NCBI GenBank assembly: GCA_029582155.1
Contig: CM055907.1
Coordinates: 8,650,001-8,714,000, forward strand
Origin: Panopea generosa
Taxonomy: Eukaryota > Mollusca > Bivalvia > Adapedonta > Hiatellidae
DNA: 64,000 nt
Direction of reading: 5' to 3'
Part shown: one piece after another, positions 2,851-58,740 of the stretch
Numbering within the stretch: position 1 is the stretch's first letter
How the letters are laid out: each line of letters starts with the position of its first letter
Translations under genes and position numbers: made by a program
The notes under the pieces: generated by a model
Seen by the model: the letters and a program-made list of their open reading frames with translations, nothing else
The model's database searches: none
What the model was told of the DNA's origin: nothing

Positions 2851-5329
2851 CTTGTTCGTGGGTATTAATTAAACAACACTATCTGAGCTTTCTGTGAAAG
2901 GTAGTCAAATCCCACTGCAATTGACGAAGTAAACGTCCTCTCAATGATATTAAAATTGCTGCATTCATTGTTTACTCATCTTGTTTATTAAATAGAATCG
3001 AAATTAAATGAATATTTGATTTGTTAAAAATACCAAAAAAATATTGAATTCTAAGACCAAACATGACCTTCTGCAAATGGCCAGGCTCAAATTTCATTAA
3101 ACATCTCAACTTGAGATTTATCGTCAACTCAAATCTTTTTTTTACTCAAAACTTTATTTACATTGATCAGTTTGCATGTTAGTCTTCACAATAGATTGTT
3201 CGTACTTCAATGATGCATGGTCATTTAATGTCTTGAGATCAAGTAATCATTTAGAGAACTTTTTTAGTTGAGGAAAATCTCAGCTTGAGATGTTTAGTGA
3301 AACTAGGTCCAGGTTTAATACCATTATAAAAAAACCTCTGTATCGCCGGTTATGATATTGATTACTGAACAACTATGTTTTGTCTGAACTTAAAATAAAT
3401 TTATAATAATACCACCGTATAAGAACTTTAAACCTATTATAAAATGTTATACGCCAATAGAATATATAATCGAGTTTTTTTCATAATCTTGTTTTCCATT
3501 GGCAGTATACGCATCAGGGAGATATTTTTATTATCAACATTTGGCATTGTGAACTGTTGTAGTTACATGCATTTCATTTGGATACATTCGCTTAAGTTAG
3601 TTCTGTTGCACAAGGACGGACGAACGGTAATCGATATCCATACTGAACAACTATGTTTGTTATGAACTTAAAATAAATTTACAATAATACCACGGTACGG
3701 TATATAGAATATGGTGTAAATGTATCAGATTTGATCTACAACATTCAATGCGACGTTCGTCCCCATGTGTTATTTATAGTATCTGAAATAAAGTTGAACT
3801 ATATCCTTTAGGATAAACGGGCTGCTTAACAGTTAATAGACGTTTGTGTTTAAGAATCTGTCTGGTAAATGTAACATTTTGTTAAAAACAAAAAACAAAC
3901 AAATAATGGTGTGTTAATCGGATATTGTACCTACAATAGTCGTTCAGAAGTGTAAAGTACAGGTGAGTATATTCGTTAATTATTTCTCCTATTTTTTAAT
4001 TTTATAATAACGGTATTTAATATTTATAATACCATTGTGATAACTTCATATTATAAAAAAGTAAATTGATAAGTTGTATGTATAACATACAAATAATTTA
4101 TCATATCAGATTCGAAATCATTTGCAATACGTGTCTATATAACCATTGGCTGACCTGTACTGGTTGATATAAATATATATATCATAGCATGTTAATATAA
4201 TATCTGATCCATTTGATAGTGTTAGGAACAACGTGTCGATATTTGCATGCATGAACAATTATTTCCTACTAAAAAAGATAAGAGTTCAATTAGACTTCAA
4301 TTTGATAATAATAGGTAATTATCTCTAGCTGATCATATATGTTTTTGTCGCATTGGATAGAAAATACCATCTATTTGGATAACCGATTTCACTGTAACTC
4401 GGTAGGGCCTCGTTCCCACCAAACACATGCTTCTTTCTGTCCGAACCTTTAACCCATTATAATTGTTTTATATCAATAGCATACATAGCAAAACCATTAA
4501 ATTAATATTTTGATATTATGTATCGATAGTTCCTATCCTGGAAAGCAAGAAATAGTCCAATTAAATGTCCAATGACTATTTTACCATTTGTCTATATTTG
4601 ATTTCCTTTTTTGAATTATTAATGTTAAGTTTAAGGTTTTGTCTCGGTTTTAACTGTATTTATTGCATTTAATTTTAACTAATAATGGGACAATACACTA
4701 TTTCAGGTTCTTGGAACAAGTCAGTACTCAATCTGCAGGCGATGCAACACATACAACTATCGTCTGATAATTCCTAACTTAACTTCTGTTTTCCATTGGT
4801 AATATGAGTATCTGGATAACATTTCTATTATAAATATTCGACACTGGGAACTGAGTAGTAACATGAATTTCATTTGGATAAATTCGCTTAAGTAAGCTCT
4901 GTTTCACATGGACGGACTCACGGAAATCGATATCCATAAAGAATAACCTCGACAGTTTTGTGACAAATACACGGTTATTATACATAACCATATTTCCTAA
5001 CAGTACATTTTGAATAAATAACTGAATTCCATGTAATAACAAAGTTGTTTCGATAACTGAACTACGACTTCAGTGATGAGGAAAAGTTGACTACAGAACA
5101 CTTAACAAACTGCGGACACCATTTTATCTGTTACGGCCTACAAACATTGATACATTGTATGTTTATTTAACTATATATTTACAGATGGAAGCATGGTTAC
5201 GTTGGACAAAATATTATTGTACTATTTCTTAACCTCAGTGCAGTTATATTTCCATTAACTTCGAACTGATATTGTGCCATTTAAATAGCACTACCGATGC
5301 TTTCGATTATTTGTAATATCGATATCTGC
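2851..5329. other. AT-rich intergenic sequence with two diverged duplicate blocks
   Basis: Two related blocks lie at about 3490-3700 and 4788-4960. Both run from TTCCATTGG through TTTCATTTGGATA and ATTCGCTTAAGT to ATCGATATCCATA. A second small duplication links 3360-3419 and 3634-3696 (CTGAACAACTATGTTTTG then AACTTAAAATAAATTTA). A strong donor-like CAG|GTGAGT sits at 3960-3967 and an acceptor-like TTTCAG near 4707. They could mark a plus-strand 5' UTR intron of the GPCR gene, but nothing else supports that. Confidence 0.5.
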
Positions 5330-6452
5330 TACTTGTAAAGTCGAAATCTACTATACATCACGTCGATTTCTACTTTTTGTAACGCCGATTTTTACCTTAC
5401 ATTACGTCGATATCTACAGTCTGTGTCTGCAATTTGTAACGTAGATATCTACTATACATAACGTCGATATCTACTCTTTGTAACGTAGATATCTACTATG
5501 TATAACGTCGATATCTTCTATACATATCGTCAATATGTACTTTTGTAACGTCGTTATCTGCTATACATAACGTCGATATTTACTATCTCTAACGTCGATA
5601 TATACAATACATACCGTCGATATCTACACTACATAACGTCGATATCAACTTTACATAACGTCGATGACTAATATGCATACCGTCGATTTCTACTTCACAT
5701 AACGTCGATATCTACTTTACATAACGTCGATATCTACAACACATACTGTCTATATCTACAATACATAACGTCGATATCTACCATACATAACGCCGATATC
5801 TACAATACATAATGTCGATATCTACCATACATAACGTCGATATCTACAATACATATCGTCGATATCTACTATACATACCGTCGATATCTACACTACATAA
5901 CGTCTATATCAACTTTACATAACGTTAATGACTAATATGCATACCGTCGATTTCTACTACACATAACGTCGATATCTACTTTACATAACGTCGATATCTA
6001 CAATACATACTGTCGATATCTACAATACATAACGTCGATATCTACCATACATAACGCCGATATCTACAATACATAATGTCGATATCTACCATACATAACG
6101 TCGATATACAATACATAACGTCGATATCTACTATACATACCGTCGATATCTACACTACATAACTTCTATATCAACTTTACATAACGTCGATGACTAATAT
6201 GCATACCGTCGATTTCTACTACACAAAACGTCGATATCTATATTACATAACATCGATATCTACAATACATACCGTCGATATCTACAATACATAACGTCGA
6301 TATCTACCATGCATAACGCCGATATCTACAATACATAATGTCGATATCTACCATACATAACGTCGATATCTACAATACATAACATCGATATCTACTATAC
6401 ATACCGTCGATATCTTCCATACATTACGTCGATATTTACAATACATACTGTC
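5330..6452. repeat. 22-bp satellite with 264-bp higher-order repeat
   Basis: The monomer is about 22 bp, of the form TACATAACGTCGATATCTAC, and repeats without interruption. A distinctive variant block, GACTAATATGCATACCGTCG, recurs at about 5665, 5930 and 6192. That makes a higher-order unit of about 264 bp (12 monomers) present in three copies. The left part, 5330-5640, is more irregular. The array stops about 35 bp before the GPCR start codon. Confidence 0.95.
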
Positions 6453-6486
6453 GTCAGTAATATTTAACTCTTTATACTTCACAATT

Positions 6487-7521
6487 ATGGCAGGAACAGG
6501 AAATATATCATACGCTTACGTCACTTCTTATAACCTCAGTGCTTCCAATGCTAAACTAAACATTAAAATAACCAACGAATCATCACACGATTACGTCTCT
6601 AAAATTCAAAATGAAACGAACGTGGAGAATGACATGCACTTAATACATAACGCACGGAAATGGGTGATTATGGTCATGGTGGTATTCGGTCTATTTGGAA
6701 ACGTGTTGGCAATCATAATATTTAGGTGTTCACATAAAAGGAAATATTCTTCTACGGCGGTTTATTTAACAACATTGGCAGTATCTGATATTCTATTGCT
6801 TGCACCTATCACATCAGCTTCTTGGCTTGAATGGGACACGTATAGTCGTTATCTTTCTATCGCAATGGATTTCTCACTACAGTTCATGGCATTTTCAAGT
6901 AAATACATATCTTCATGGATACTTGTTGCTGTGACCTTTGACAGAGTCGTCAGTGTAGCATATCCGCACAGAGTCAAGGCTATATGCAGTGTAAAAATAG
7001 CAAAGGTTGTTTGTTTGCTAATATGTTTCATAATTTTTCTACTTAATTCCCATTATTTATTAGTTGGATTTGGGCAGACAAATATTCTTACTTTATATGA
7101 AAAAAAAAACATGTTTCATTGGAAAATTCTGCCATGGATCAACTTTTTTATTGTGTTCGCTATACCATGTGTACTTATCATATGTGGAAATGTTATAATT
7201 ATCTACATCGTTGTGCACTCACGAAAGAAAAAACAAATAGCAAAAAGAAAGAAAAGGCCCAAATTAGGAATGACTGTGACTTTAGTAGTTGTTAATATTG
7301 CTTTCATGATTACCTTAGGACCTTATAATACAGTTTGGGCTATGTATTCTTTTTATCAATTCAAACTAAGCCCCAAAGTACGCAAGGTAATTGGAATTCT
7401 CAATATGATCCAGAATTTAAATGCCGTACTGAACTTTTATCTTTATGTTTTGAGCGGATCGAAATTCAGAGCTGATATGAAACAGTGTTTTTCTAAATTA
7501 TGTTTCAAAACTTGCAAATAA
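6487..7521 (+). CDS. class A (rhodopsin-like) GPCR, single exon, ligand unknown
   Basis: A 344-residue intact reading frame has an extracellular N-terminus of about 57 residues with four N-glycosylation sequons (N6, N16, N30, N42), seven hydrophobic segments and a short Cys-rich tail. Family marks are GN in TM1 (71-72), SD in TM2 (D101), DRV in place of DRY at the end of TM3 (152-154), LGP in TM6 and NFYLY in place of NPxxY in TM7 (316-320). The usual TM3 and extracellular-loop-2 cysteines and the TM6 CWxP motif are not seen, so the standard disulfide is probably absent. This pattern, with an intronless ORF, resembles the large molluscan groups usually labelled FMRFamide-, TRH- or opioid-receptor-like. 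The ligand cannot be named. The ATG chosen is the first in frame. The function as a plasma-membrane receptor is inferred from the fold. Confidence 0.88.
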   Translation: MAGTGNISYAYVTSYNLSASNAKLNIKITNESSHDYVSKIQNETNVENDMHLIHNARKWVIMVMVVFGLFGNVLAIIIFRCSHKRKYSSTAVYLTTLAVSDILLLAPITSASWLEWDTYSRYLSIAMDFSLQFMAFSSKYISSWILVAVTFDRVVSVAYPHRVKAICSVKIAKVVCLLICFIIFLLNSHYLLVGFGQTNILTLYEKKNMFHWKILPWINFFIVFAIPCVLIICGNVIIIYIVVHSRKKKQIAKRKKRPKLGMTVTLVVVNIAFMITLGPYNTVWAMYSFYQFKLSPKVRKVIGILNMIQNLNAVLNFYLYVLSGSKFRADMKQCFSKLCFKTCK

Positions 7522-10486: not shown

Positions 10487-12000
10487 AATTGTATCGATTG
10501 CTAGTTACTAGAAGTCATGCATTAATATATAACACTTTATACTTGTCAATGTTTACCTGTGCTGCTTGCAAATGTACTGGTTACGAAGCATAAGTTTTCA
10601 TTAAAACGATTTCTAAAGTCATAGACTGTACAAAACGATACTAGCTTTCCCAGCCAGGAACCGTTACATAGTAGTCACATACGCGTATGTTGATTGGTCG
10701 ATTGCTTCAGCGGAAGTTAAATTATGTCACAGTATTGTAAACACACTAGAGTGCAATGAAAGTTGGGACAGACAGGACATCCCGTGCTTTTATAGATGTG
10801 AATCGAGATACGTTAGTTCCTAAATGCATGTCGTGGATTCCATGAAGTTAAGGCAGACCAATGGTGATCGTGTAACAGTTTCAGGATAACACTTTAGACA
10901 ATAAGTACCAAAAGTGGTATATTTAATATTGCAGCTCATAAGAACATTCGGCGTTTTGAATATACTGTAAGAGTTTGCCTTAGTAAAGAAATCCAAAGCA
11001 CTTGGAGTAATGAAATTTGGACAAACATTGTTAAGTAGAAATGAAATGATAAAGTTTGTGTCAGATGTATTTCGCAACATTAAATATGTATAAATGAGTA
11101 TACTAATGGAAAGCGATTAAGTGGGGGCTACTTTTACAAACCGATGTTTGTTGTATGGGTACAACAAAACACATACGACAGGATACTCTTTTATTTGGAC
11201 TAGTCTTTTATTTAGAAGTTTTAAGTGTGAAATAATATTTCACAGCTCACTATCCTATATGGTAGACATTTGTATGTATATCAAAGACAGTTTGATATTC
11301 CAGATGGTATACATATGAAAACAAGCAATTATAATGTTTTAAAAATCCCCAAGATGATCTAAATATGAATGTTTTGTCAGAAAAAGTTCAACCTTAAACC
11401 AGGGAATAAGAGATATAGTTCCTTAAATAAAGTTTCAATCATATAGTAAGTAATTTATTGATGATACACATAATACATATTAAATATATAATGGAAACAA
11501 CTGCAACGTTATCCTAAACATATATTACATGTACTATAAAGTTTATTTAGTATTTGTTTGTTTACTATACTTGTAAAATTGAAGTTCGACCCCAAAAGAG
11601 GGAATGCCTTAGTTAATATTATTATGCATACGTTAAAAAAAAAACTAAACTTCATTTCTCTTATTTGTGTATACGGCGAAATCTTTTCAACAAAACTAGT
11701 TGTATTTTTGACGTTTAAAATAAATGTTGCCGTGTAAATACTTACGACGTCATGACGCTAAAGAGTATACGACGTTGTGTGACGTCACGTCAGAGTGACG
11801 TTTTCTTTAATAGTAACTTTGTGTTTCACATTTTACGCAGCACAGTTTGAGTTGTACTGGCGTATTTCACTGAAAACACGGTATTTTTCATATAAATTTC
11901 ACATTTTGCTCTATCTTTGTGTGAAGTATATGCGTGAACGTTTTCACAATTCTATTAATTTTTTATTATGATTTCTTTTTTATCATCGTAATCGTTTGCC
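10487..12000. other. intergenic sequence up to the first gap
   Basis: No gene is supported. A segment at 10685-10730 (TTGATTGGTCGATTGCTTCA) has a diverged counterpart at 24151-24192, so it belongs to a dispersed repeat. The final 250 bp contain CRE-like sites (separate entry). Confidence 0.5.
11745..11800. promoter_or_regulatory. cluster of CRE-like TGACGTCA/GACGT motifs
   Basis: A perfect palindromic CRE (TGACGTCA) lies at 11780-11787, with CGACGTCATGACG at 11745-11757 and further TGACG/GACGT half-sites up to 11800. Such sites bind CREB/ATF factors in animals. If the 12501-48954 contig is reversed as argued, this cluster would lie upstream of the GABA-B-like gene in its own orientation. That link is inference. 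Confidence 0.35.
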
Positions 12001-12500
12001 NNNNNNNNNNNNNNNNNNNNNNNNNNNNNNNNNNNNNNNNNNNNNNNNNNNNNNNNNNNNNNNNNNNNNNNNNNNNNNNNNNNNNNNNNNNNNNNNNNNN
12101 NNNNNNNNNNNNNNNNNNNNNNNNNNNNNNNNNNNNNNNNNNNNNNNNNNNNNNNNNNNNNNNNNNNNNNNNNNNNNNNNNNNNNNNNNNNNNNNNNNNN
12201 NNNNNNNNNNNNNNNNNNNNNNNNNNNNNNNNNNNNNNNNNNNNNNNNNNNNNNNNNNNNNNNNNNNNNNNNNNNNNNNNNNNNNNNNNNNNNNNNNNNN
12301 NNNNNNNNNNNNNNNNNNNNNNNNNNNNNNNNNNNNNNNNNNNNNNNNNNNNNNNNNNNNNNNNNNNNNNNNNNNNNNNNNNNNNNNNNNNNNNNNNNNN
12401 NNNNNNNNNNNNNNNNNNNNNNNNNNNNNNNNNNNNNNNNNNNNNNNNNNNNNNNNNNNNNNNNNNNNNNNNNNNNNNNNNNNNNNNNNNNNNNNNNNNN
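12001..12500. other. assembly gap, 500 N
   Basis: This is a run of exactly 500 N, the usual placeholder for a gap of unknown size. The reading frames that cross it are meaningless. Confidence 1.
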
Positions 12501-14372
12501 AGAATAAACAATCAACAAATACCATAATCAAGATAAACACACAGACTGAATGACCACATGAGCATAAACAATCAAAACATACTATAATTAAGATAAACAC
12601 AACATAAACACACAGACTGATGACCACACCATCATGAACAATCACTGTTTACCATAATCAAGATAAACACAACATAAACACACACACTGAGTGACCACAA
12701 CATCATGAACATTCAACGCATACCATAATCAAGATAAACACAACAAAAACACACAAACTGAGTGACCACATGAGCATAAACAATCAACACATACCATAAT
12801 CAAGAAAAACACAACATAAACATACAGAGTGAGTGACCACAACATCATGAACAGTCAAGGCATACCATAATCAAGATAAACACACCATAAACACACATAC
12901 TGAGTGACCACAACATCATAAACAATCAAGAAATACCATAATCAACATAAACACAATATAAACACACAAACTGAGTGACCACATGAATGAGCATAACCAA
13001 TCAGCACAAACCATAATAAAGGTAAATATAACACAAACACACAGACTGAGTGACCACATGAGCACGAACAATTAACACATACCATAATCAAGGTAAATGC
13101 AGCACAAACACAAAGACTGAGTGACCACATGAGCGTGTACACTCAAAACATTGCATAATCAAGGTAAATACAATTCCAACACACAGACTAAGTGACCACA
13201 TGAGCATAAACAATCAACACATACTATATTCAAGATAAATACAACATAAACACAAAGACTGATTGACCGCATGAGCGTAAACAATCAACACATACCATAA
13301 TCAAGGTAAATACATCACAAACACACAGACTGAGTGACCACATGAACATAAACAATTAACACATACCATAATCAAGGTAAATACATCACAAACACACAGA
13401 CTAAGTGACCATATGAGCATAAACAATCAACACATTCCACAATCAAGGTAAATACATCACAAACACACAGACTGAGTGACCAAAAGACCATAAACAACCA
13501 ACACATACCATATTCAAGATAAATACAACATAAACACAAAGATGAGTGACCGCATGAGAATAAGCAATCAACACATACCATAATCAAGGTAAATACATCA
13601 CAAACACACAGATTCAGTGACCACATGAACATTAACAATTAACACATACCATAATCAAGATAAATACAACACAAACACACAGATTTAGTGACCACATGAG
13701 CATAAACAATCAACACATTCCACAATTAAGGTAAATACAGCACAAACACACGGACTGAGTGACCAAAAGACCATAAACAACCAACACATACCATATTCAA
13801 GATAAATACAACAAAAACACACAGACTGAGTGACCACATGAGCGTAAAAAATCAACACATACCACAATCAAGATAAATACAACAAAAAAACACAGACTGA
13901 GTGACAACATGTGCATAAACAATCAACATGTACCATACTCAAGATAAATACAACATAGACACACAGACTGAGTGACCACATGACCATAAACAATCAACAC
14001 ATACCATAATTAAGATAAATACAACCTAAACACACAGAATGAGTGACCACATGAGCGAAAACAATCAACATTTACCATTTTCGAGATAAATACAACACAA
14101 ACACATAGACTGAGTGACCACATGAGCGTAAACAATCAACACATACCATAATCAAGATAAATACAACATAGACACACAGACTGAGTGACCACATGACCAT
14201 AAACAATCAACACATACCATAATCAAGATAAATACAACAAAAACACACAGACTGAGTGACCACATGAGCATAAACAACCAACACGTACTACAATTAAGAT
14301 AAATACAACACAAACACACAGACTGAGTGACCACATGAGCATAAACAACCAACACGTACTACAATTAAGATA
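12501..14372. repeat. 72-bp satellite array, about 26 copies
   Basis: The unit is about 72 bp and carries CAACACATACCATAATCAAG, AAACACACAGACTGAGTGAC and CACATGAGCATAAACAAT. A distinctive block with ACCAAAAGACCATAAACAAC recurs at about 13480 and 13765, suggesting a four-unit higher-order repeat of about 288 bp. The array begins directly at the gap edge, so its left end is not sequenced. A two-copy piece in reverse orientation stands at the second gap (49455). Confidence 0.96.
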
Positions 14373-15654
14373 TATAGATGCGCTTCTTCAAAAAGACAGT
14401 AACAAAGCCATCACTGAGGAGCTTAAACCAACCAATTACTATGAAAATTTTACATTGTGCTTTATAGTTTAACTTATGTTTTAAATTGGAAACAAACTTC
14501 AATCTTTATGTTCATTTCTAACAATTTTAACAAATCGTCTGTTAAAAACAAAAACATGGTGTCTACCTAAATTTCCGAAATTATGGTTTTCAAATTCTTA
14601 GTATGATATCTTGTAAATACATATTGTCTCAAAATGTCAGCTTCATATCTTAATTAGTTTTGAAGATATTGATTATAGATCAAACCTTGCATCTGAAATC
14701 AATCCGATTTCCACCTACCAAAATCTTGTAGATGTAGATACTATATATTTTTGTCATTTATGCAACACATTTGCATGCCAGAGTATATCACCTGTGCATA
14801 CAATATTTTGGTTTTTAACTACCAGAAAGAATTCGGTAAAAAACCGAGAGACAGAACATGGTATATGATTATGACAGGTTACAGCTTTAACATGTGACAA
14901 CTCTAATCATCTCTACCATTTTGCTAAACCTAACATCTGGAGATACACATGTCTACTAGTAAATAAATACAAGCAATATTCAGCCATACCCTGGTATTAA
15001 ACAACAGAATTGTATGGTTGTGTGAGAAGTAGTGAAAACGTCTGGTGTGGTAAAAACCAGTCCATATTGTTTGTAAATGAAACATTTTTAAAACAGGTAT
15101 TTGACCAAAGAAGTGCAAATTGGTGTTGATAACCTGGTATATCAGATTTCATCTGACTTATTGTGTTGATGATAAGCAACGGTATTAACACAATCTAGAA
15201 AAATTTAAAAAGTGACACAAAATATTGAAATTTAAAGGTATGTAATTTTATGCATCACTCATTATTATAGATAAATGCAATTAGATTAGTATTTCTTGTA
15301 CTTGAAATAGATATTAAAAATATATATACCAAAATTTCAATATTTATTCCTGTATATGTCAATTAATTTAGTTAATTCATAAATTAAAATTGTACTTATA
15401 CTGAATAATTATATTAATCATTATTATGGTCGCCGTAACACATTTTGCTGTTATCGTGCATTTGTTCATATTATAGAAGAACGATAAATGGTGAGTTTAA
15501 AATACAAAATTATTATCAAAAAATTTTTTTCTGCATGTAGCCAGCTGATAATGATAACAAACTTCATACCTTTGCCACACAGATAGAACAGTTTTTGGTT
15601 GAAAATGAAAGCATATCTGGAAATGAAATAATTGCTGTAACAAAATACAAATTA
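14373..15654. other. AT-rich intergenic sequence
   Basis: I see no gene, transposon end or repeat array here. Short open frames at 14930-15191 (-) have no recognisable features. Confidence 0.5.
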
Positions 15655-17250
15655 ATGTAACGAAATAACAACCATAAAAGAGAAGTTTGATATTGTAGTT
15701 GATGTTATCAAGAAAAATGAGTGTAACGATATAACAACCATAAAAGAGAAGTTGAATATTGTCAGTGTTGTCACAGATGAAAATGAGTGTAACGATATAC
15801 CAACCATAAAAGAGCGTTTGGATATTGCACGTGTTGTCACAGAGAAAAATGAGTGTAACGATATAACAACCATAAAAGAGAAGTTGGATATTGCAAGTAT
15901 TGTTACAGAGGAAAATGAGTGTAACGATATAACAACCATAAAAGAGAAGTTGGATATTGCAAGTATTGTTACAGAGGAAAATGAGTGTAACGATATAACA
16001 ACCATAAAAGAGAAGTTATATATTGTAAGTGCTGTCATAGAGGAAAATGTGTGTAACGATATAACAACCATAAAAGAGAAGTTGGATATTGTAAGTGCTG
16101 TCACAGAGGATAATGAGTGTAACGATATAACAACCATAAAAGAGAAATTGGATAGTGTAAGTGTTGTAACAGAAGAAAATGAGTGAAACGATAAAACAAC
16201 CAAAATAGAGAAGTTGGATATTGCAAGTGCTGTCACAGAGGAAAATGATTGTAACGATAAAACAACCATAAAAGAGAAGTTTGATATTGTAAGTGCTGTC
16301 ACAGAGGAAAATGGGTGTAACGATATAACAACCATAAAAGAGAAGTTGGATATTGTAAGTGCTGTCATAGAGGAAAATGTGTGTAACGATATAACAACCA
16401 TAAAAATGAAGTTGGATATTGTAAATGCTGTCACAGAGGAAAATGGGTGTAACGATATAACAACCATAAAAGAGAAGAATGATATTGTAAGTGTAATAAC
16501 AGAGGAAAATGAGTGTAATGATATAACAATCATTAAAGAGAAGTTGGATATTATAAGTGCTGTCATAGAGGAAAATGAGTGTAACGATATAACAACGATG
16601 TATATCGTAAGTGATTTACAGAGGAAAATGAGTGTAATGATATAACAACCATAAAAGAGAAGATGGATATTGTAATTGCTGTCACAGAGGCAAATGAGTG
16701 TAACGGTGTAACAGCCATAAGAGTAGTTGGATATGTAAGTGCTGTCACAGAACAAAATGAGTGTAACAATATACAACCATAAAAGAGAAGTTGGAATTGT
16801 AAGTGCTGTCACAGAACAAAATGAGTGTAACAATATGACAACCATAAAAGAGAAGTTGGAAATTGTAAGTGCTGTCACAGAAGAAAATGAGTGTAACGCT
16901 ATAACAACCATATAAGAGAAGTTGGATATTGTAAATGCTGTCACAGAGAAAAATGAGTGCAACGATATAACAAACATAAAAGAGAGGTTGGATATTGTAA
17001 GTGATGTCACCAAGGAAAACGAACGTGATGATACAACAACCGTAAATGAGAAATCGGATAATGTTTGTACTGTCACAGAGGAAAATAAATGTTATGATGC
17101 AACAACCGTGAAAGAGAAGACGGGTTTTTAAAGGCTATCACAGAGGAAAACGAACTTGATGATACAACCATTAAAGAAAAGTCGCATAATGTAATACTGT
17201 CACAGAGGAAAACTAATGTAACAACACAACAACCATAAAAGAGAAGTATA
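15655..17250. repeat. 66-bp minisatellite, open on both strands
   Basis: About 24 copies of a 66-bp unit (22 codons) are present. On the plus strand the unit encodes a charged repeat, NDITTIKEKLDIVSAVTEEN-EC. This frame is open at 15752-16186 and 16214-16645 and is broken by a TGA at about 16184 and by later indels. On the minus strand the same DNA is open for 474 codons (15652-17076) as a hydrophobic Ser/Val/Phe repeat, SLHSFSSVTALTISNFSFMV. Because the unit length is a multiple of three, one lucky frame stays open in every copy, so neither frame is strong evidence of a protein. The plus frame has the more protein-like composition and is followed by other coding-like sequence. Confidence 0.93.
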
Positions 17251-17300
17251 TCACAGAGGTAAACTAAACTGCTAGAAACACAATGGAAAGTGAACTTGTA

Positions 17301-18275
17301 GATATAAGTGATAGTAAGAAACACTAAAATCCAAAGCGAATGCCTACAAGAAACAAAAAATACATTTCAAATTCTAATTAAGTGTACCAACCGGTACATT
17401 CCACATAATGAAAGTGATGCTGTAACATTTGCCCCGAACAAAAACACAAGGATAGCAGGATTGCAAGGCAGAGTAGCAAAGTTCACACCGGTACCTAACA
17501 ATCAGTTATGTATACACCATGTTCACTAGTAAATGTGATGTATTGCATAAACAAATCGTGTTGTTATATCTTGTATATATATGGTGCAGATGACAACAGC
17601 GCAGCATATTAGTTTTGATCAGAAATCAAAATTTGGAATCTTCAGTTGAACACATAATTCTATATTCAGGTGTATACCCTAGGCAAAGCAGAAATCTGAT
17701 CACGGCAACACGTATGTATATATTTCTGAACCCCCCCCCCCCCCCCCAACAAAAAAACAACAAAAAAAACCCAAAAAAAAACACCAAACAACATCTAACA
17801 TCAAAATAAATAACCATAAATGTCTTCGAGAGTGGCATAATGCACATGATGTGCGATTGTTTGTACGCAGCAATGAAAGTAAAAAAAGCCAAAATCAAAT
17901 ATCTTCGTAACAAGCCAGTGGGACACTGTGGTATCTATGGCACAAAAGTCCTTACTATGTAGTGACCCCGAAACATAAGGACTTCAAAATGTCAGATATA
18001 AAACAACCAGAACAACAACACGGAAAATTGGCAAAAAACAAAATGAACCAGCATAAAGTGGGTGCGAATCATAAAAGATGACCCAGATATGTGCTTCTTC
18101 AAATACGGATTTTGATGAATAAAGGGAATATCAGAAGTGAAGACGATGCAATATAGTCTAAAGAACAACTGCTGTATTTGTACAAAGCAAATTACAAATA
18201 TCAAGTGCCAAGAAAAAGGACACGATTGCTTTGTGAAAGAATGGTGGAATCCATCAGAATTCAACGAGTACTGAA
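17301..18275 (+). pseudogene. decayed coding-like sequence, family not recognised
   Basis: Several plus-strand stretches look protein-coding but lie in different frames with stops between them. 17308-17529 contains NTRIAGLQGRVAKFTPVP. 17824-17964 contains KIKYLRNKPVGHCGIYG. 18168-18275 contains NCCICTKQ and KCQEKGHDCF, then ends EWWNPSEFNEY-stop; its CxxC and further Cys/His residues resemble a zinc-binding segment. A run of 17 C and A-rich sequence at 17731-17800 separates the first two parts. It may be a broken transposase (hAT-like is one possibility) or the 3' part of a dead gene that began in the 66-bp array. I cannot name it. Confidence 0.35.
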
Positions 18276-19565
18276 ACTTAAAAATGTCCCATGTAACAGC
18301 ATATATCTATATACAGATAATGGTAGAAGACAAGACAGTTTAACAGTGATATAAAACATGTTCAATTAAATGTTCAGTTTTCATGTACTTAAAAATACTA
18401 AACTTAATGTCTTAGTATTTAAACTGTTTGAAATTAGAAATGACCACGGTGTATAGGAAAAAGATTATGATGATATCATGACCATGAATTGCAAAAAGGC
18501 ACGATTTCAGGTCTGATAGTAACACTATGTAATGGTATGTAAAATATGTGTATAATAAATGTGTAATATTTTATTTCGTCATTTAAAGAAAACATGTCTA
18601 AAGTCTTATTACGAGAAATATAATCACATTATGGTGAAAAATTTATTTTAATTGTTTATGCATCTGAATGACTTTATCATGATTATAAATGTTATTAACC
18701 CACAAGATAACATGTTTTGGTTTAAAAAGCCTCAGTATTACTACGACTTATATTACAACAAGAACAGCATATGGCAATTTACAATGTTATGTCCTTTATC
18801 TTATTAGATTTTTGTTATCAAATGGTATTGCCATACATTGTATCCATGCTATTATATAGCAAAATAAGAATAATATTTAACTCTTGCTTTTGTTAATGCC
18901 AAAATATGTTTTGGTTAATACAATATTTTGAATCTCCATTCACATACAATTTGTTTTCATGTCCTTAAAGCTAAAGACTGTTATAGGTATATACTAGGTT
19001 CTGGCATAAATACTTTCAGAAATATCTGTTTTTCACATGTGCTAAATACAAGCATCTATAGATACCAGGGTAAGGTTAGCTGAAATAAAGAACACTTTTC
19101 ATTTTGCTCAAAAACCAGAACATCTTATCGGAAGATAAGATGTTGAACCTATACATAAATACTGCCTTTTTAACTAAATTTATTCTGCCAAAAACCAAAA
19201 TAGCCTATATGTCATCATTTGAAGAACCAATAATTTGAAACATATGTATATTACTAAAGCATGTATCGATGAGTCAAATTGCTAAGAATTTTATGTAAAT
19301 ATGATTTTTTTAACATTTGACAACGTTTTTTCATGTTCCTGAACAATTTCAAAAAACGTAGATACCAGGTTCTGTTTTTTTAACAGACGAATCATTTTTA
19401 ACGAACTATTGCCTAGAGTATGATGTAAATCCTTTTACAATTCACAAATCATCTTTACTTTCGTAACTATTTAACTATCAATATCATTTTTGTTTGTAAG
19501 AATAAAAATGAAAACACCCTGTTTGTTATGTATAACTTAAAGGCGAATAAAGTACTAATTGACTG
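18276..19565. other. AT-rich sequence, includes the 3' flank of the GABA-B-like gene
   Basis: No coding sequence is supported. The part next to 19565 should contain the 3' UTR of the minus-strand receptor gene, but I could not fix a polyadenylation site. Confidence 0.5.
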
Positions 19566-46972
<27,407 letters not shown>

Positions 46973-47419
46973 CTACAATCGTCATATTATATATTTAAAC
47001 GTCTTCTAAATAAAGTCAATATAATTCAAGAGTTGAATTCTTATAAACGGTTGGTATGACATCGCAATAACGTGGGTCTCTTCTTTGCTTAATATGTTAT
47101 TTTAAAAGTTTGTAGTATTGATCAAAAAGAACACATACATATATATTCTAAAGAAACTTATGCTGGTCACTGTACTGTTTCATCATTAATGAGTCACTTA
47201 ATTCATTTAATGTATCAATGTTCAAACATTTGTCTAAGTTGAGTATCTACGAAACAAGAGATTGCTCGGTCTAATATTAATATTGTATTTGTGCTATGTA
47301 ACTGATTAAGAACTGATGTAAATATTTTGAGAGAGCTACATAATCAGTTGAGATTATATATTTCTGTTTAAACTAATTTATTTTAACTCGATTGCGAAAA
47401 AAGCTTATAGTTTATTTGA
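46973..47419. other. sequence upstream of the first visible receptor exon
   Basis: I searched the minus strand here for a signal peptide or the start of the flytrap domain and found none. Confidence 0.5.
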
Positions 47420-47566
47420 ACCGCCCTCGAGTCCACTTCCTTGGTAGAACCAGTCCTAGTTTGTTATTTTATGACAGACATCGGGCCAAGCGGGGGATCG
47501 AACCCGCAACCTCTGCCGTGAGCTGCCAACACTCTATCCATTACATTACTGGTCACTTCAGTTCTT
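47420..47566 (-). mobile_element. tRNA-derived SINE
   Basis: The minus strand reads GTAATGGATAGAGTGTTGGC (A-box region) and later GCGGGTTCGATCCCCCGC (B box within a T-stem-like palindrome). It is closely related to the copy at 60855-60975. Confidence 0.75.
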
Positions 47567-48485
47567 AGTTTTGATTAACAAAACAATATTTTATAAAAGT
47601 ATTACGGTTATTATTTATTCTAGAAATAATATTACTACTACGTTCGTCACTGTATTACAACAAGACAATATTTTAATGGAGCAGTGCGATTTCGATTCAC
47701 ATGCCGACCTTTTAGCTTCTGTTTCGACAGAATGCGATGTGTTGTAGGAGTAAGTTAAATACGATTTGTCGAAGCTACTTTCATTTGCAAATGTCACTTT
47801 TTACTTTAACTGTCATTTAATATCCTTGGATGTCATTTTGATTTTATCATCGTATTCAATATTGGCATCAGTTGCTATAAATATAATTAGGGGGTGTTAG
47901 GAATAACATTTATTGATTTTTTTAACATCAGTCATACATTTTACTATTCCATTAGAATTCATTATAATTTACCTTAGTTTATATTAACTCCTTATTTGCA
48001 ATTGACATTTTCTCACTTTATGTTCATGTATTGACTCGAATCTATGAGACAAATAGCTAATTTGTTTTTCATTTTTAAATACTGTGTTTGGTTCTTGTTT
48101 ATAACGACATGCCATGTTAAACAAGCGCCTAATGTATGTGCACTAGCGTCAGAGTAAAGAATATAGGGTTTGACGTGTCGGGATACCTTAATAAAAGTAA
48201 TATTGACACCTTGGTTTTCAATGTTTCATATGATTTTTACATGCATGCATGTGTCCAACGGGACTTTGCTAACACAATTAATGGCTCAACTTTTTTCTAG
48301 AAAACGTGGTATGAATCATCGATAGTAACAACACATACCAATGGAACTTCTTACTTCCTTAACATAATTTGGTATAACGTTTTCATAACCTCTACATTTC
48401 ATGTTCATTGATAACACATCCAATGTAATTTATTTCTTCCTTGAGAAAGTCATCTGTCTTTAATTTTAAATTAAGCTTATTAACC
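47567..48485. other. unremarkable sequence
   Basis: AT-rich DNA with no supported gene. The minus-strand frame at 47615-47797 shows no family features. Confidence 0.5.
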
Positions 48486-48890
48486 TTAATCTACCGAATA
48501 CGTTTTGAATATGCTCAAATGTTCTTCAGATGTAGAAGAGCACACATTAATATCGTATATGTAATTTATAGCAAAATCATTGAAACCTTTGATGTCTTCT
48601 GTCATTAATTCGAAAAATACATCTGGAGCACATTTTATTACAAATGACATGGCATTACATTGAAATAAACCAGCATGACAAGTGAATGCATTTGTTCTTG
48701 CTGCATTTAATTTGGCGAAAACCTGCGCTAAAATCAAGACTTGTAAACTATTATGCTTTTCCTAGCAAAGCTAACATGCAATCTATATGTGGCAAATGCT
48801 TAATGTTTGGTGCAGTTATTTCATTTAGTTCTATGTAATCAACACAGAATGTGAATTATCCGTTTTAAGAAAAATAACGATGGGAAAACT
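48486..48890 (-). pseudogene. Ty3/gypsy-like reverse transcriptase remnant
   Basis: The minus strand reads FCVDYIELNEITAPNIKHLP and HIDCMLALLGKA. In another frame it continues NAFTCHAGLFQCNAMSF, APDVFFELMTEDIKG and NYIYDINVCSSTSEEHL. This follows the order of gypsy reverse transcriptases (CVDYRxLN...LPxID; F.CH.GL..F..MPFG; YLDDI; EEH). The catalytic YxDD has become YIYD, and there is at least one frame change, so it is inactive. It runs up to the second gap. Confidence 0.82.
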
Positions 48891-48954
48891 TACAGTGATA
48901 TTGATTCAGATATAATTTTAGCATCTGACATTTCATGTCCTGCTTGTTTAATAA

Positions 48955-49454
48955 NNNNNNNNNNNNNNNNNNNNNNNNNNNNNNNNNNNNNNNNNNNNNN
49001 NNNNNNNNNNNNNNNNNNNNNNNNNNNNNNNNNNNNNNNNNNNNNNNNNNNNNNNNNNNNNNNNNNNNNNNNNNNNNNNNNNNNNNNNNNNNNNNNNNNN
49101 NNNNNNNNNNNNNNNNNNNNNNNNNNNNNNNNNNNNNNNNNNNNNNNNNNNNNNNNNNNNNNNNNNNNNNNNNNNNNNNNNNNNNNNNNNNNNNNNNNNN
49201 NNNNNNNNNNNNNNNNNNNNNNNNNNNNNNNNNNNNNNNNNNNNNNNNNNNNNNNNNNNNNNNNNNNNNNNNNNNNNNNNNNNNNNNNNNNNNNNNNNNN
49301 NNNNNNNNNNNNNNNNNNNNNNNNNNNNNNNNNNNNNNNNNNNNNNNNNNNNNNNNNNNNNNNNNNNNNNNNNNNNNNNNNNNNNNNNNNNNNNNNNNNN
49401 NNNNNNNNNNNNNNNNNNNNNNNNNNNNNNNNNNNNNNNNNNNNNNNNNNNNNN
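48955..49454. other. assembly gap, 500 N
   Basis: A second run of exactly 500 N, of unknown true size. The missing 5' exons of the receptor gene could lie here or, if the contig is reversed, beyond the first gap. Confidence 1.
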
Positions 49455-49560
49455 TATCTTGATTATGGTATTTGTTGATTGTTTATTCTCAGGTGGTCAC
49501 TCAGTCTGTGTGTTTATGTCGTATTTATCTTGATTATGGTATATGTTGATTGTTTATAAT
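49455..49560. repeat. 72-bp satellite, reverse orientation, about 1.5 copies
   Basis: This is the reverse complement of the 12501-14372 satellite. Bases 49455-49489 are identical to the reverse complement of 12501-12535, including the variants ATTTGTTG and TTTATTCT that no other unit of the main array shares. Confidence 0.95.
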
Positions 49561-50274
49561 GTTGTGATGGCTTCGTCTCCTGCTGGATATATTATTTGTT
49601 TTTTTTTATGACAGAATAACGCAAACTTTACTATTCTAAAATCGAAATGGAGCTTTGCTAGTAAGCAATACAAGAATGAATTTCAAATTTGTCTTTGGAG
49701 CATATTGTATATGAGACTTGAACTATTTACATGCAGGCAGCGTCGAGAGCAATGATGGCAACGCACAAAGACTTTTTGAATGATGTTGTGTTTAAAACTT
49801 CGCAAGGTGTATCGCAACATTTGAAATATATTTAAACATACAGTTGTTTTTGTGATCCGAAAAATCTCAACATCTTCCTTAATTATCATTATCAAACACA
49901 ACAGATGGATATGTCTTAGCTGTTAAGTGTCTATTGGTAAAAAAGAAAACCGTCCTATATGTGATTATGACAGCTAATAGTTTAATATTATACAAAATAA
50001 GTTTTATATGAACAATATCTAGGGTAACATCATCTTGTAATATATATATATAGCCTAAATAGCACGTGCTAAGTGCAAGGCTAGACTAGCCCAATATGAA
50101 CTAAAAATGTAGATAGACTTTGTTGCGCTAAGCCCACAAATGTCGGGTCAAAAAAACTATAAAAAAATATACTGTATGAATTGCTATTTTATATTTTTAG
50201 TTATTAATTAAATTTATTCAAGGACGGCATTCTGAGATGTGTATGGTATGTGTCACGTTTACATACTAAACAAA
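49561..50274. other. unremarkable intergenic sequence
   Basis: No gene, array or transposon end is recognised, apart from a short TA run at about 50040. Confidence 0.5.
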
Positions 50275-56765: not shown

Positions 56766-57049
56766 TTGTATGGGTTTTTTTGCAACAATTTTGCAGTTAT
56801 ATCGCGACGGTGTCTACTTGAGACACTGTAGTATCATTGCCACAGACACTTGATATCCTACCCAATCCAGTCAATGTATACTGACAGCGGGCCGGCCAGA
56901 CCTAGAACTATCCTCTAAATTTTTAGCGCTTAACGAGCAAGTTTCGAGGACCATTTTTCAAGTATTTGGTATGACCCGGACTGGGATCGAACCCACAACC
57001 TTCCGCAAGCGAGTCGGGCTCTCTTCCCCTAGACCATTGCTGCAGAAGC
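56766..57049 (-). mobile_element. tRNA-derived SINE with target-site duplication
   Basis: On the minus strand it starts with GCAATGGTCTAGGGGAAGAG (A-box region) and GTGGGTTCGATCCCAGTCCG (B box). A body of about 200 bp follows, ending in a T/C-poor AAAAAAACCC stretch. It is flanked by AGAATGATG (56757-56765) and AGAATGAAG (57050-57058), an 8-of-9 match that is the target duplication within the host unit. Confidence 0.85.
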
Positions 57050-57114
57050 AGAATGAAGTAGTGTTTCATTTACACTATAGCATACATTGCAAATACTTGT
57101 ACACAGGTAAAAAA

Positions 57115-57365
57115 TAACACGTATCTTAAACATATGTTGAAAAAAATACTTTTAACCGTATGTTTAACATATGTTTTACGTGCAGTTTGATTAACATGCG
57201 TTTCAAAATATGTGTTTAACGTGCGTGGTACTCCATGAAAAACATACGTATTTGACCGTATGTTAAACTTACGTTAAATATATATTTGACATGCGTGGTA
57301 CCATTTATATGAATAATATAAGTTTTAACCGTACGTCAAATTTGCGTTTAACGAACGTTAATCTG
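57115..57365. repeat. degenerate repeats of an AACATACGTTAA-like motif
   Basis: The sequence is crowded with variants of ACCGTATGTTTAACATATGT, TTTAACGTGCGTGGTA and TTTGACATGCGTGGTACCAT. At least two loosely repeated blocks of about 100 bp can be drawn. Many motifs are self-complementary (ACGT, CATATG, AACGTT). Confidence 0.7.
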
Positions 57366-57699
57366 CAATACTAATAGAATAATAATACAATAATAATGTA
57401 TGTTATATTGTTAATGAAACACCGCGTCATTCTACATGTATTTATATACTGGTTGCAAACCCACGTGATCAAATGCTATGGGGTAGTGTAACAAATGGAA
57501 GGAAAAGTGCCAGCTTCCGTTGTGCATGATCACGTGATAGTACCGATTGTTGATCTCTATACAGAGACGGTGTTTGTCTTGTTTTCGTAAAATGTAATGA
57601 AATATTAAGAACGTTATCTGCAAAAAATGTAAACTAAAGCTGCTGTTTTTTCTAAGATTTTTACGTTATTCGCTAGCATAAGGTCACGTGGGTATATAA
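57366..57699. other. intergenic sequence sharing a dispersed repeat with 59463-59560
   Basis: TGATCAAATGCTATGGGGTA with GGAAAAGTGCC near 57468-57512 has a diverged partner at 59497-59545. No gene is supported. Confidence 0.45.
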
Positions 57700-58740
57700 A
57701 TAGAATAACATGGTTATAGATACAACCACACGTTCAAACCATAAATAACATGGTTATAGATACAACTACATGTTCACACCTTATATAACATGGATATAGA
57801 TACAACCACACGTTCACACCATATATAACATGGTTATAGATACAACTACATGTTCACACCTAATATAACATGGTTATAGATACAACCACACGTTCACACC
57901 ATATATAGCATGGTTAAAGATACAACCACACGTTCACACCATATATAGCATGGTTAAAGATACAACCACACGTTTACACCAAATATAACATGGTTATAGA
58001 TACAACTACATGTTCACACCTAATATAACATGGTTATAGATACAACCACACGTTCACACCATATATAGCATGGTTATAGATACAACCACACGTTCACACC
58101 ATATATAGCATGGTTAAAGATACAACCACACGTTTACACCAAATATAACATGGTTATAGATACAACTACATGTTCACATCTAATATAACATGGTTATAGA
58201 TATAACCACACGTTCACACCTTATACAACATGGCTAAAGATACAACCTCACGTTCACACCATATATAACATGTTTACAGATACAACCACACGTTCACACC
58301 ATATATAACATGGTTATAGATACAACCACACGTTCACACCTTATATAACATGGTTATAGATACAACCACGAGTTCACACCATATATAACATGGTTATAGG
58401 AACAACCACGAGTTCACATCCTATATAGCATGGCTATAGATACAACCACACGTTCAAACCATTTTTAGCTTGGTTATCAATAAAAACCATATGTTCACAC
58501 CTTTTATAACATGGTTATAAATAAAACCATATGTCCACACCATATATAACATGGTTATAGATACAACCACATGTTCACACCTTATATAGCATGGTTGTAA
58601 ATAAAACCATATATTCACACATAGTATGGTTATATATACAATTCCATGTTCACACCATATATAACATGGTTTTAAATACATGACATGCTCACGCCATATA
58701 TAATATGGCTATTTACAACCTCACAAGTTTACACCATACA
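57700..58740. repeat. 40-bp satellite, about 26 copies
   Basis: The unit is ATATAACATGGTTATAGATA + CAACCACACGTTCACACCAT. Variant forms (CAACTACATG; AGCATGGTTAAAG with CGTTTACACCAAA) recur in the same order at 57900-58020 and 58060-58170, about 160 bp apart, so there is a short higher-order repeat. The right end is degenerate. Confidence 0.96.

Follow-up and report, generated by a model that had tools for sequence, protein, structure and literature searches.

A probably misoriented 36-kb contig in the Panopea generosa assembly, suggested by an exact end overlap inside a 71-bp satellite

The analysed stretch of the Panopea generosa genome (GenBank assembly GCA_029582155.1, CM055907.1, positions 8,650,001 to 8,714,000 of the forward strand; 64,000 nucleotides, referred to as the window) consists of three contig stretches (1-12000, 12501-48954 and 49455-64000; contigs 1, 2 and 3) and raises the question whether the middle one, which carries a GABA-B-like receptor gene with an incomplete 5' end, is drawn in its true orientation. 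A first-pass annotation had proposed that contig 2 is inverted; this proposal is supported by the exact dovetail of two contig ends, by the finding that the other tandem arrays of the window each have one locus only and, mildly, by a 10-bp direct repeat. Judged from the sequence, contig 2 is most likely misoriented, and the observation most likely represents an ordinary scaffolding error and not a biological discovery.

The contig ends facing the two gaps

12001-12500, no strand: gap 1, placeholder of exactly 500 N
48955-49454, no strand: gap 2, placeholder of exactly 500 N
12501-48954, no strand: contig 2 (36454 bp), for which a wrong orientation is proposed (gap positions and end overlap)
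12501-12535, plus strand: 35-bp contig end, exact reverse complement of 49455-49489 (end comparison)
49455-49489, minus strand: 35-bp contig end, reverse complement of 12501-12535 (end comparison)
12501-14372, plus strand: 71-bp satellite array with 27 unit starts (Tandem Repeats Finder, TRF, and unit listing)
49455-49560, minus strand: short piece of the 71-bp satellite that consists of one full 71-bp unit and a partial one of 35 bp (similarity by BLAST extends to 49566)

Contig 2 is bounded on both sides by placeholder gaps of fixed size. Comparison of the four gap-facing ends in all pairings and orientations for exact dovetails of 6-2999 bases yielded a single one: the 35 bases at 12501-12535 are, in every letter, the reverse complement of those at 49455-49489, each end abutting a 500-N gap, as had been stated in the first-pass annotation. 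In consequence, the end sequences of contigs 2 and 3 fit only once contig 2 is flipped. Both overlapping ends belong to one satellite; its occurrence after both gaps in opposite orientations was recovered as previously described, whereas the period is 71 bp according to TRF instead of the 72 bp given before. At the two remaining gap-facing ends (12000 and 48954; 150 bases each, both strands) no satellite remnants above the level of shuffled sequences were present.

Ends located inside one satellite overlap in phase automatically, and therefore only the exactness of the match is informative. With up to 10 mismatches allowed, the shared 35-mer was matched at 29 places of the window (27 in contig 2 and 2 in contig 3, both ends counted); beyond the end pair, the nearest satellite units differed from it by at least 3 mismatches. 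Relative to the consensus, the 35-mer contains two substitutions (positions 3 and 18) that had been regarded as private to the two ends: their combination is indeed found in none of the 26 other contig-2 units, whereas each single substitution recurs in one of them (units 13557 and 12915). Among homologous 35-mers of the contig-2 array taken at all phases, 156 of 23101 comparisons (0.7%; the 35-mers overlap one another) were identical, so that a chance coincidence of the exact match amounts to roughly 1 in 150; between independent arrays it would presumably be rarer still. The 35-mer had no match in the viral_contigs collection, a result that is uninformative on the host genome.

The first satellite unit of contig 2 comprises 60 bp, 11 bp less than the usual 71; the missing stretch begins at the end of the shared 35 bases, and the site of the shortening is enclosed by AAACACA direct repeats. 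The situation most likely arose from a single genomic array of the 71-bp satellite that runs from contig 3 into contig 2 and was broken by the assembler inside the array, with both contigs left ending on the same 35 bases; the length ambiguity at the 11-bp shortening may have been what stopped the assembler. A long-range scaffolder (probably based on Hi-C, to judge from the fixed 500-N gaps) would then have placed contig 2 in reverse between its neighbours, the wrong orientation having possibly been chosen since a contig of 36 kb would carry few orienting contacts. Flipping contig 2 would join the reversed 12501-14372 to 49455-49560; the resulting union of the long and the short array in one orientation agrees with the first-pass annotation. 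The exact overlap would then reflect true adjacency of the two contig ends.

Errors of this kind are known from Hi-C scaffolders (3D-DNA, SALSA2). For 3D-DNA and one human short-read data set, PMC7672694 gives 4.3% local errors and describes shorter contigs as harder to orient; for simulated data, PMC6719893 attributes more than half of the errors to inversions, which SALSA2 reduces by means of assembly-graph overlaps. A Hi-C scaffold with 500-N gaps is described in PMC10421919. The present locus resembles the cases treated in PMC7672694 and PMC6719893 in that a short contig lies between gaps of fixed size, and the use of assembly-graph overlaps as a remedy for orientation follows the same reasoning as an end overlap that contradicts the drawn orientation; in contrast to these systems, the overlap is only 35 bp long and located inside a satellite.

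Competing explanations and their weighing

According to a first alternative, the assembly is correct and contains two arrays of one dispersed satellite-like family that are 36 kb apart, oppositely oriented and each broken by a gap, the 35-bp identity being a coincidence or the result of a recent duplication. Such arrays would have a counterpart in the Helentron HINE elements of Crassostrea gigas, for which PMC7492417 describes central repeats forming short satellite-like arrays in both orientations and, at one gene, two nearly identical copies about 4.5 kb apart. The likeness to these HINE elements is that a short array of diverged units stands outside any long satellite block; short arrays of diverged units are abundant throughout the window. 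HINE elements have subterminal inverted repeats of 11-12 bp, and repeats of this kind with one mismatch are common in C. gigas. No exact inverted match of 11-12 bp exists between the flanks of the array studied here, the longest exact one having 9 bp (600 bp on the 5' side against 200 bp on the 3' side, exact matches only). A HINE element would also show a microsatellite in its left flank and a palindrome directly behind the array. In the left flank of the array, TRF lists no microsatellite in 49572-50160 at a score of 50, a setting at which short decayed ones would escape, and the only palindrome with an arm of at least 7 in the 200 bp past the array (arm 8, loop 7, start 14525) is about 150 bp away.

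The behaviour of the other tandem repeats speaks against two dispersed arrays. From 54 TRF rows, 23 tandem-array loci were obtained by merging overlapping rows, with a few very short ones left out; for none of the 21 arrays other than the 71-bp satellite did BLAST (E-value 0.001) detect a second array in the window, a lone match of 27-30 bp elsewhere being present for 2 of the 21. Two arrays of the same family at a distance of 36 kb would therefore be unusual in this window. The low frequency of exact 35-mer identity even inside one array and the two other gap-facing ends, which lack satellite above shuffles, likewise disagree with this explanation, which we consider unlikely. For one array that a gap has interrupted, no coincidence has to be assumed.

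The flanks of the satellite contain a further feature that bears on the orientation:

14405-14414, plus strand: AAGCCATCAC, 32 bases past the contig-2 array, first of the two copies that the window contains
49564-49573, minus strand: AAGCCATCAC, 3 bases before the full contig-3 satellite unit, the second copy in the window

The flip of contig 2 turns the two copies into a direct repeat that brackets the array in the manner of a target-site duplication. A 10-bp match was reached in 4 of 2000 mononucleotide shuffles of the 30 and 60 bases beside the array, flank windows that were chosen narrow and post hoc, after the match had been seen. Decayed satellite units did not exceed shuffles in either flank (p 0.08 for contig 2, p 0.42 for contig 3), and the word is therefore not shown to be a decayed satellite unit. 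The direct repeat supports the flip mildly, and only so because of the post hoc windows and because the flanks as a whole cannot be aligned above shuffles.

Several results weigh against a misoriented contig 2. A shared 10-bp word is unremarkable in wider flanks (600 x 200 bp; 128 of 500 shuffles), and the flanks (150 versus 148 bp) gave no alignment above shuffles (p 0.58). Within the contig-2 array, 2 of the 351 unit pairs at the phase of the 35-mer are identical, so that local duplication can yield an exact 35-mer. The missing receptor exons, which after the flip would be expected toward contig 1, were not found there (see below). The highest scores of the complete contig-3 unit were those with units 14196 and 14125, which stand at the opposite end of the contig-2 array, as the explanation by two dispersed arrays would have it; overall, the unit takes an intermediate place between the six leftmost units and all others (mean score 47.9 versus 49.8), and unit similarity depends weakly on separation (Mantel r -0.17, permutation p 0.03, 25 complete units). 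In favour of the flip, the hexamer CACAAC precedes the full contig-3 unit as well as 3 of the 25 contig-2 units listed with their preceding hexamer, all three of them within the first 7 units near the left end, a pattern seen post hoc. As the best-scoring units and the preceding hexamer point in opposite ways, the contig-3 unit neither refutes nor helps the flip, and its position along the array was dropped as support on account of the intermediate similarity.

A second alternative regards both orientations as real: an inversion polymorphism, or a difference between haplotypes, whose breakpoints lie in the satellite, the assembly mixing haplotypes. Such breakpoints would fit the inverted satellite copies that follow the two gaps as drawn; in the flipped arrangement, however, the satellite is continuous and located at one breakpoint only, the ends at 12000 and 48954 being free of it, and nothing in the sequence needs a polymorphism. 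It is accordingly regarded as very unlikely. A third possibility, to which we assign slightly less credence still, is that contig 2 is attached to contig 3 in the flipped manner without being the neighbour of contig 1. Neither end of contig 2 was found to be connected with contig 1 by an overlap, a split repeat or a gene, as would be expected from a misplaced contig; on the other hand, placement of short contigs is, in our view, safer than their orientation, and 3D-DNA is characterized in PMC7672694 as widely employed to locate contigs, with orientation remaining challenging.

The misorientation of contig 2 was weighed by means of a prior of about 10% for a misoriented contig of 36 kb, a factor of about 7-40 for the occurrence of one family at precisely these two ends and in the orientation required, and a factor of about 15-20 for the exact overlap, all of which are estimates; the product corresponds to a value above 0.9. 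The probability was set lower, at a level that still makes the flip clearly the likely state, because of the unit-similarity result and because the genome-wide count of the 35-mer lies outside the data of the window. If contig 2 is misoriented, the receptor gene model at this locus is separated from its 5' exons and assigned to the wrong strand, and genome comparisons would report a false 36-kb inversion; the finding would be a useful correction for users of the assembly, without consequence for any open question of biology. A search for exact overlaps among the contig ends that face gaps is a quick, text-only assembly check; the flipped orientation is not for use without read support.

The receptor gene of contig 2 and the adjoining end of contig 1

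46829-46972, minus strand: ligand-binding domain exon of a GABA-B-like receptor, the most 5' one found (tblastn with a human query)
46058-46225, minus strand: ligand-binding domain exon of the same type (tblastn; PDB E 2.8e-10; Pfam ANF_receptor E 9.4e-10)
about 41576-41686, minus strand: weaker GABA-B-like piece (tblastn and small profile)
about 40091-40153, minus strand: weaker GABA-B-like piece (tblastn and small profile)
36209-36418, minus strand: ligand-binding domain exon of a GABA-B-like receptor (tblastn; small profile E 1.9e-6)
35403-35534, minus strand: weaker GABA-B-like piece (tblastn)
34338-34664, minus strand: open reading frame with a GABA-B-like stretch from the late part of the ligand-binding domain (E 0.015, weak if taken singly; ANF_receptor not matched)
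25600-25749, minus strand: 7tm_3 stretch that probably belongs to this receptor (E 2.8e-7; 30.9 bits against a curated cut-off of 33.5)

On the minus strand of contig 2, a class C ligand-binding domain is followed by 7tm_3 in the expected order, only one ligand-binding exon lying above the Pfam cut-off and the 7tm_3 match just under the curated one. The exon order corresponds to one gene reading toward lower coordinates, from which it follows that after the flip the receptor lies on the plus strand and its 5' end faces lower coordinates, as the first-pass annotation had it. A class C receptor with introns would point to an animal genome. The gene shares same-strand, in-order exons with GABA-B receptor subunit 1, to which its best exon is closer (PDB 4mqe and others, E 2.8e-10) than to subunit 2 (E 4.8e-7). 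In contrast to subunit 1, the first part of the ligand-binding domain (approximately the first 50 residues) and the signal peptide were not found in the window; the 5' end is thus incomplete.

No convincing 5' exons were detected by Pfam, tblastn or the small profile in the minus strand of contig 3, the plus strand of contig 1 or 46973-48954, the best small-profile match outside contig 2 (E 0.31) lying inside a dinucleotide repeat. The Pfam search covered 30 pieces, namely the plus strand of contig 1 from base 700 (12), the minus strand of contig 3 from 49560 (15) and the right end of contig 2 (3); apart from a 7tm_1 receptor of contig 1 (6361-7521), its matches (E 0.0004-1) were below the curated cut-offs and taken as noise. 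The power of this exon search was limited: Pfam missed the exon 46829-46972, which was in frame in one of the pieces and was found by tblastn. Whole-frame Pfam scans, in which 8 of the proteins were not part of the list of open reading frames, were not relied on for absence, because one of them missed this 7tm_1 receptor, which was recovered with shorter pieces. The earlier expectation that the missing exons lie below 12000 or in the gap thus found no confirmation on the plus strand of contig 1, within this limited power; the exons may be located in a gap or outside the window, or may be short ones that were overlooked. As they were found in neither neighbouring contig, the receptor is silent as a test of orientation.

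The exon 46829-46972 is followed by a 134-bp tandem repeat of 2.4 copies (TRF; region 46574-46922) that, by eye, seems to be built of partial, decayed copies of this exon and its splice region; one exon copy contains an in-frame stop, and a weak profile match is present at 46574-46636.

11401-12000, no strand: end of contig 1 rich in CpG and in cAMP response element (CRE) half-sites, candidate promoter (CpG and motif counts)

The CpG observed/expected ratio at 11601-12000 is 2.02 and ranks 12th among 619 windows of 400 bases, all 11 higher-ranking windows overlapping a 22-bp array at 5325-6447. Six of the 26 TGACGT/ACGTCA sites of the window are clustered in 11709-11796, and this CRE half-site cluster includes a full TGACGTCA. 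The stretch 11401-12000 could be a promoter; in the flipped arrangement it would stand on the 5' side of the receptor gene. CpG richness is nearly equal in contig 3 at 57001-57700 (2.01 at 57101-57500); as this stretch near 57 kb could serve the drawn order, the promoter argument was given no weight for the flip. An inversion polymorphism of about 36 kb that has inverted satellite at its breakpoints and flips the GABA-B-like receptor gene relative to its promoter region, with one form represented in the assembly, would be a version of the second alternative and is just as improbable. Contig 1 stops exactly at window base 12000, which may be due to chance or to a round-number cut by a misjoin corrector. 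At lower coordinates, contig 1 contains an apparently complete rhodopsin-family receptor in one plus-strand open reading frame, 6361-7521 (7tm_1, E 2.7e-18); the open frame begins within the 22-bp tandem array, and the first ATG is located just past it.

Other repeats of the window

48486-48761, minus strand: decayed reverse-transcriptase fragment near the right end of contig 2

The 5' part of this fragment would fall beyond gap 2 (region 48486-48954). At the thresholds used, non-satellite BLAST matches numbered 3 between contigs 1 and 2 and 4 between contigs 2 and 3, with none between contigs 1 and 3; all were short or weak, and none touched a gap-facing end. At 40269-41464, a 66-bp array and a perfect (ACAG)37 microsatellite are separated by about 275 bp (TRF), an order that recalls the microsatellite and central repeats of oyster HINE elements as described in PMC7492417. 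ARAGORN revealed no tRNA gene, and Rfam gave no match at gathering score. Stretches with a GTTCGATCC-type box B, which we take to be of the kind found in tRNA-derived short interspersed elements, were recognized by eye at 47490-47520 and 56970-57030.

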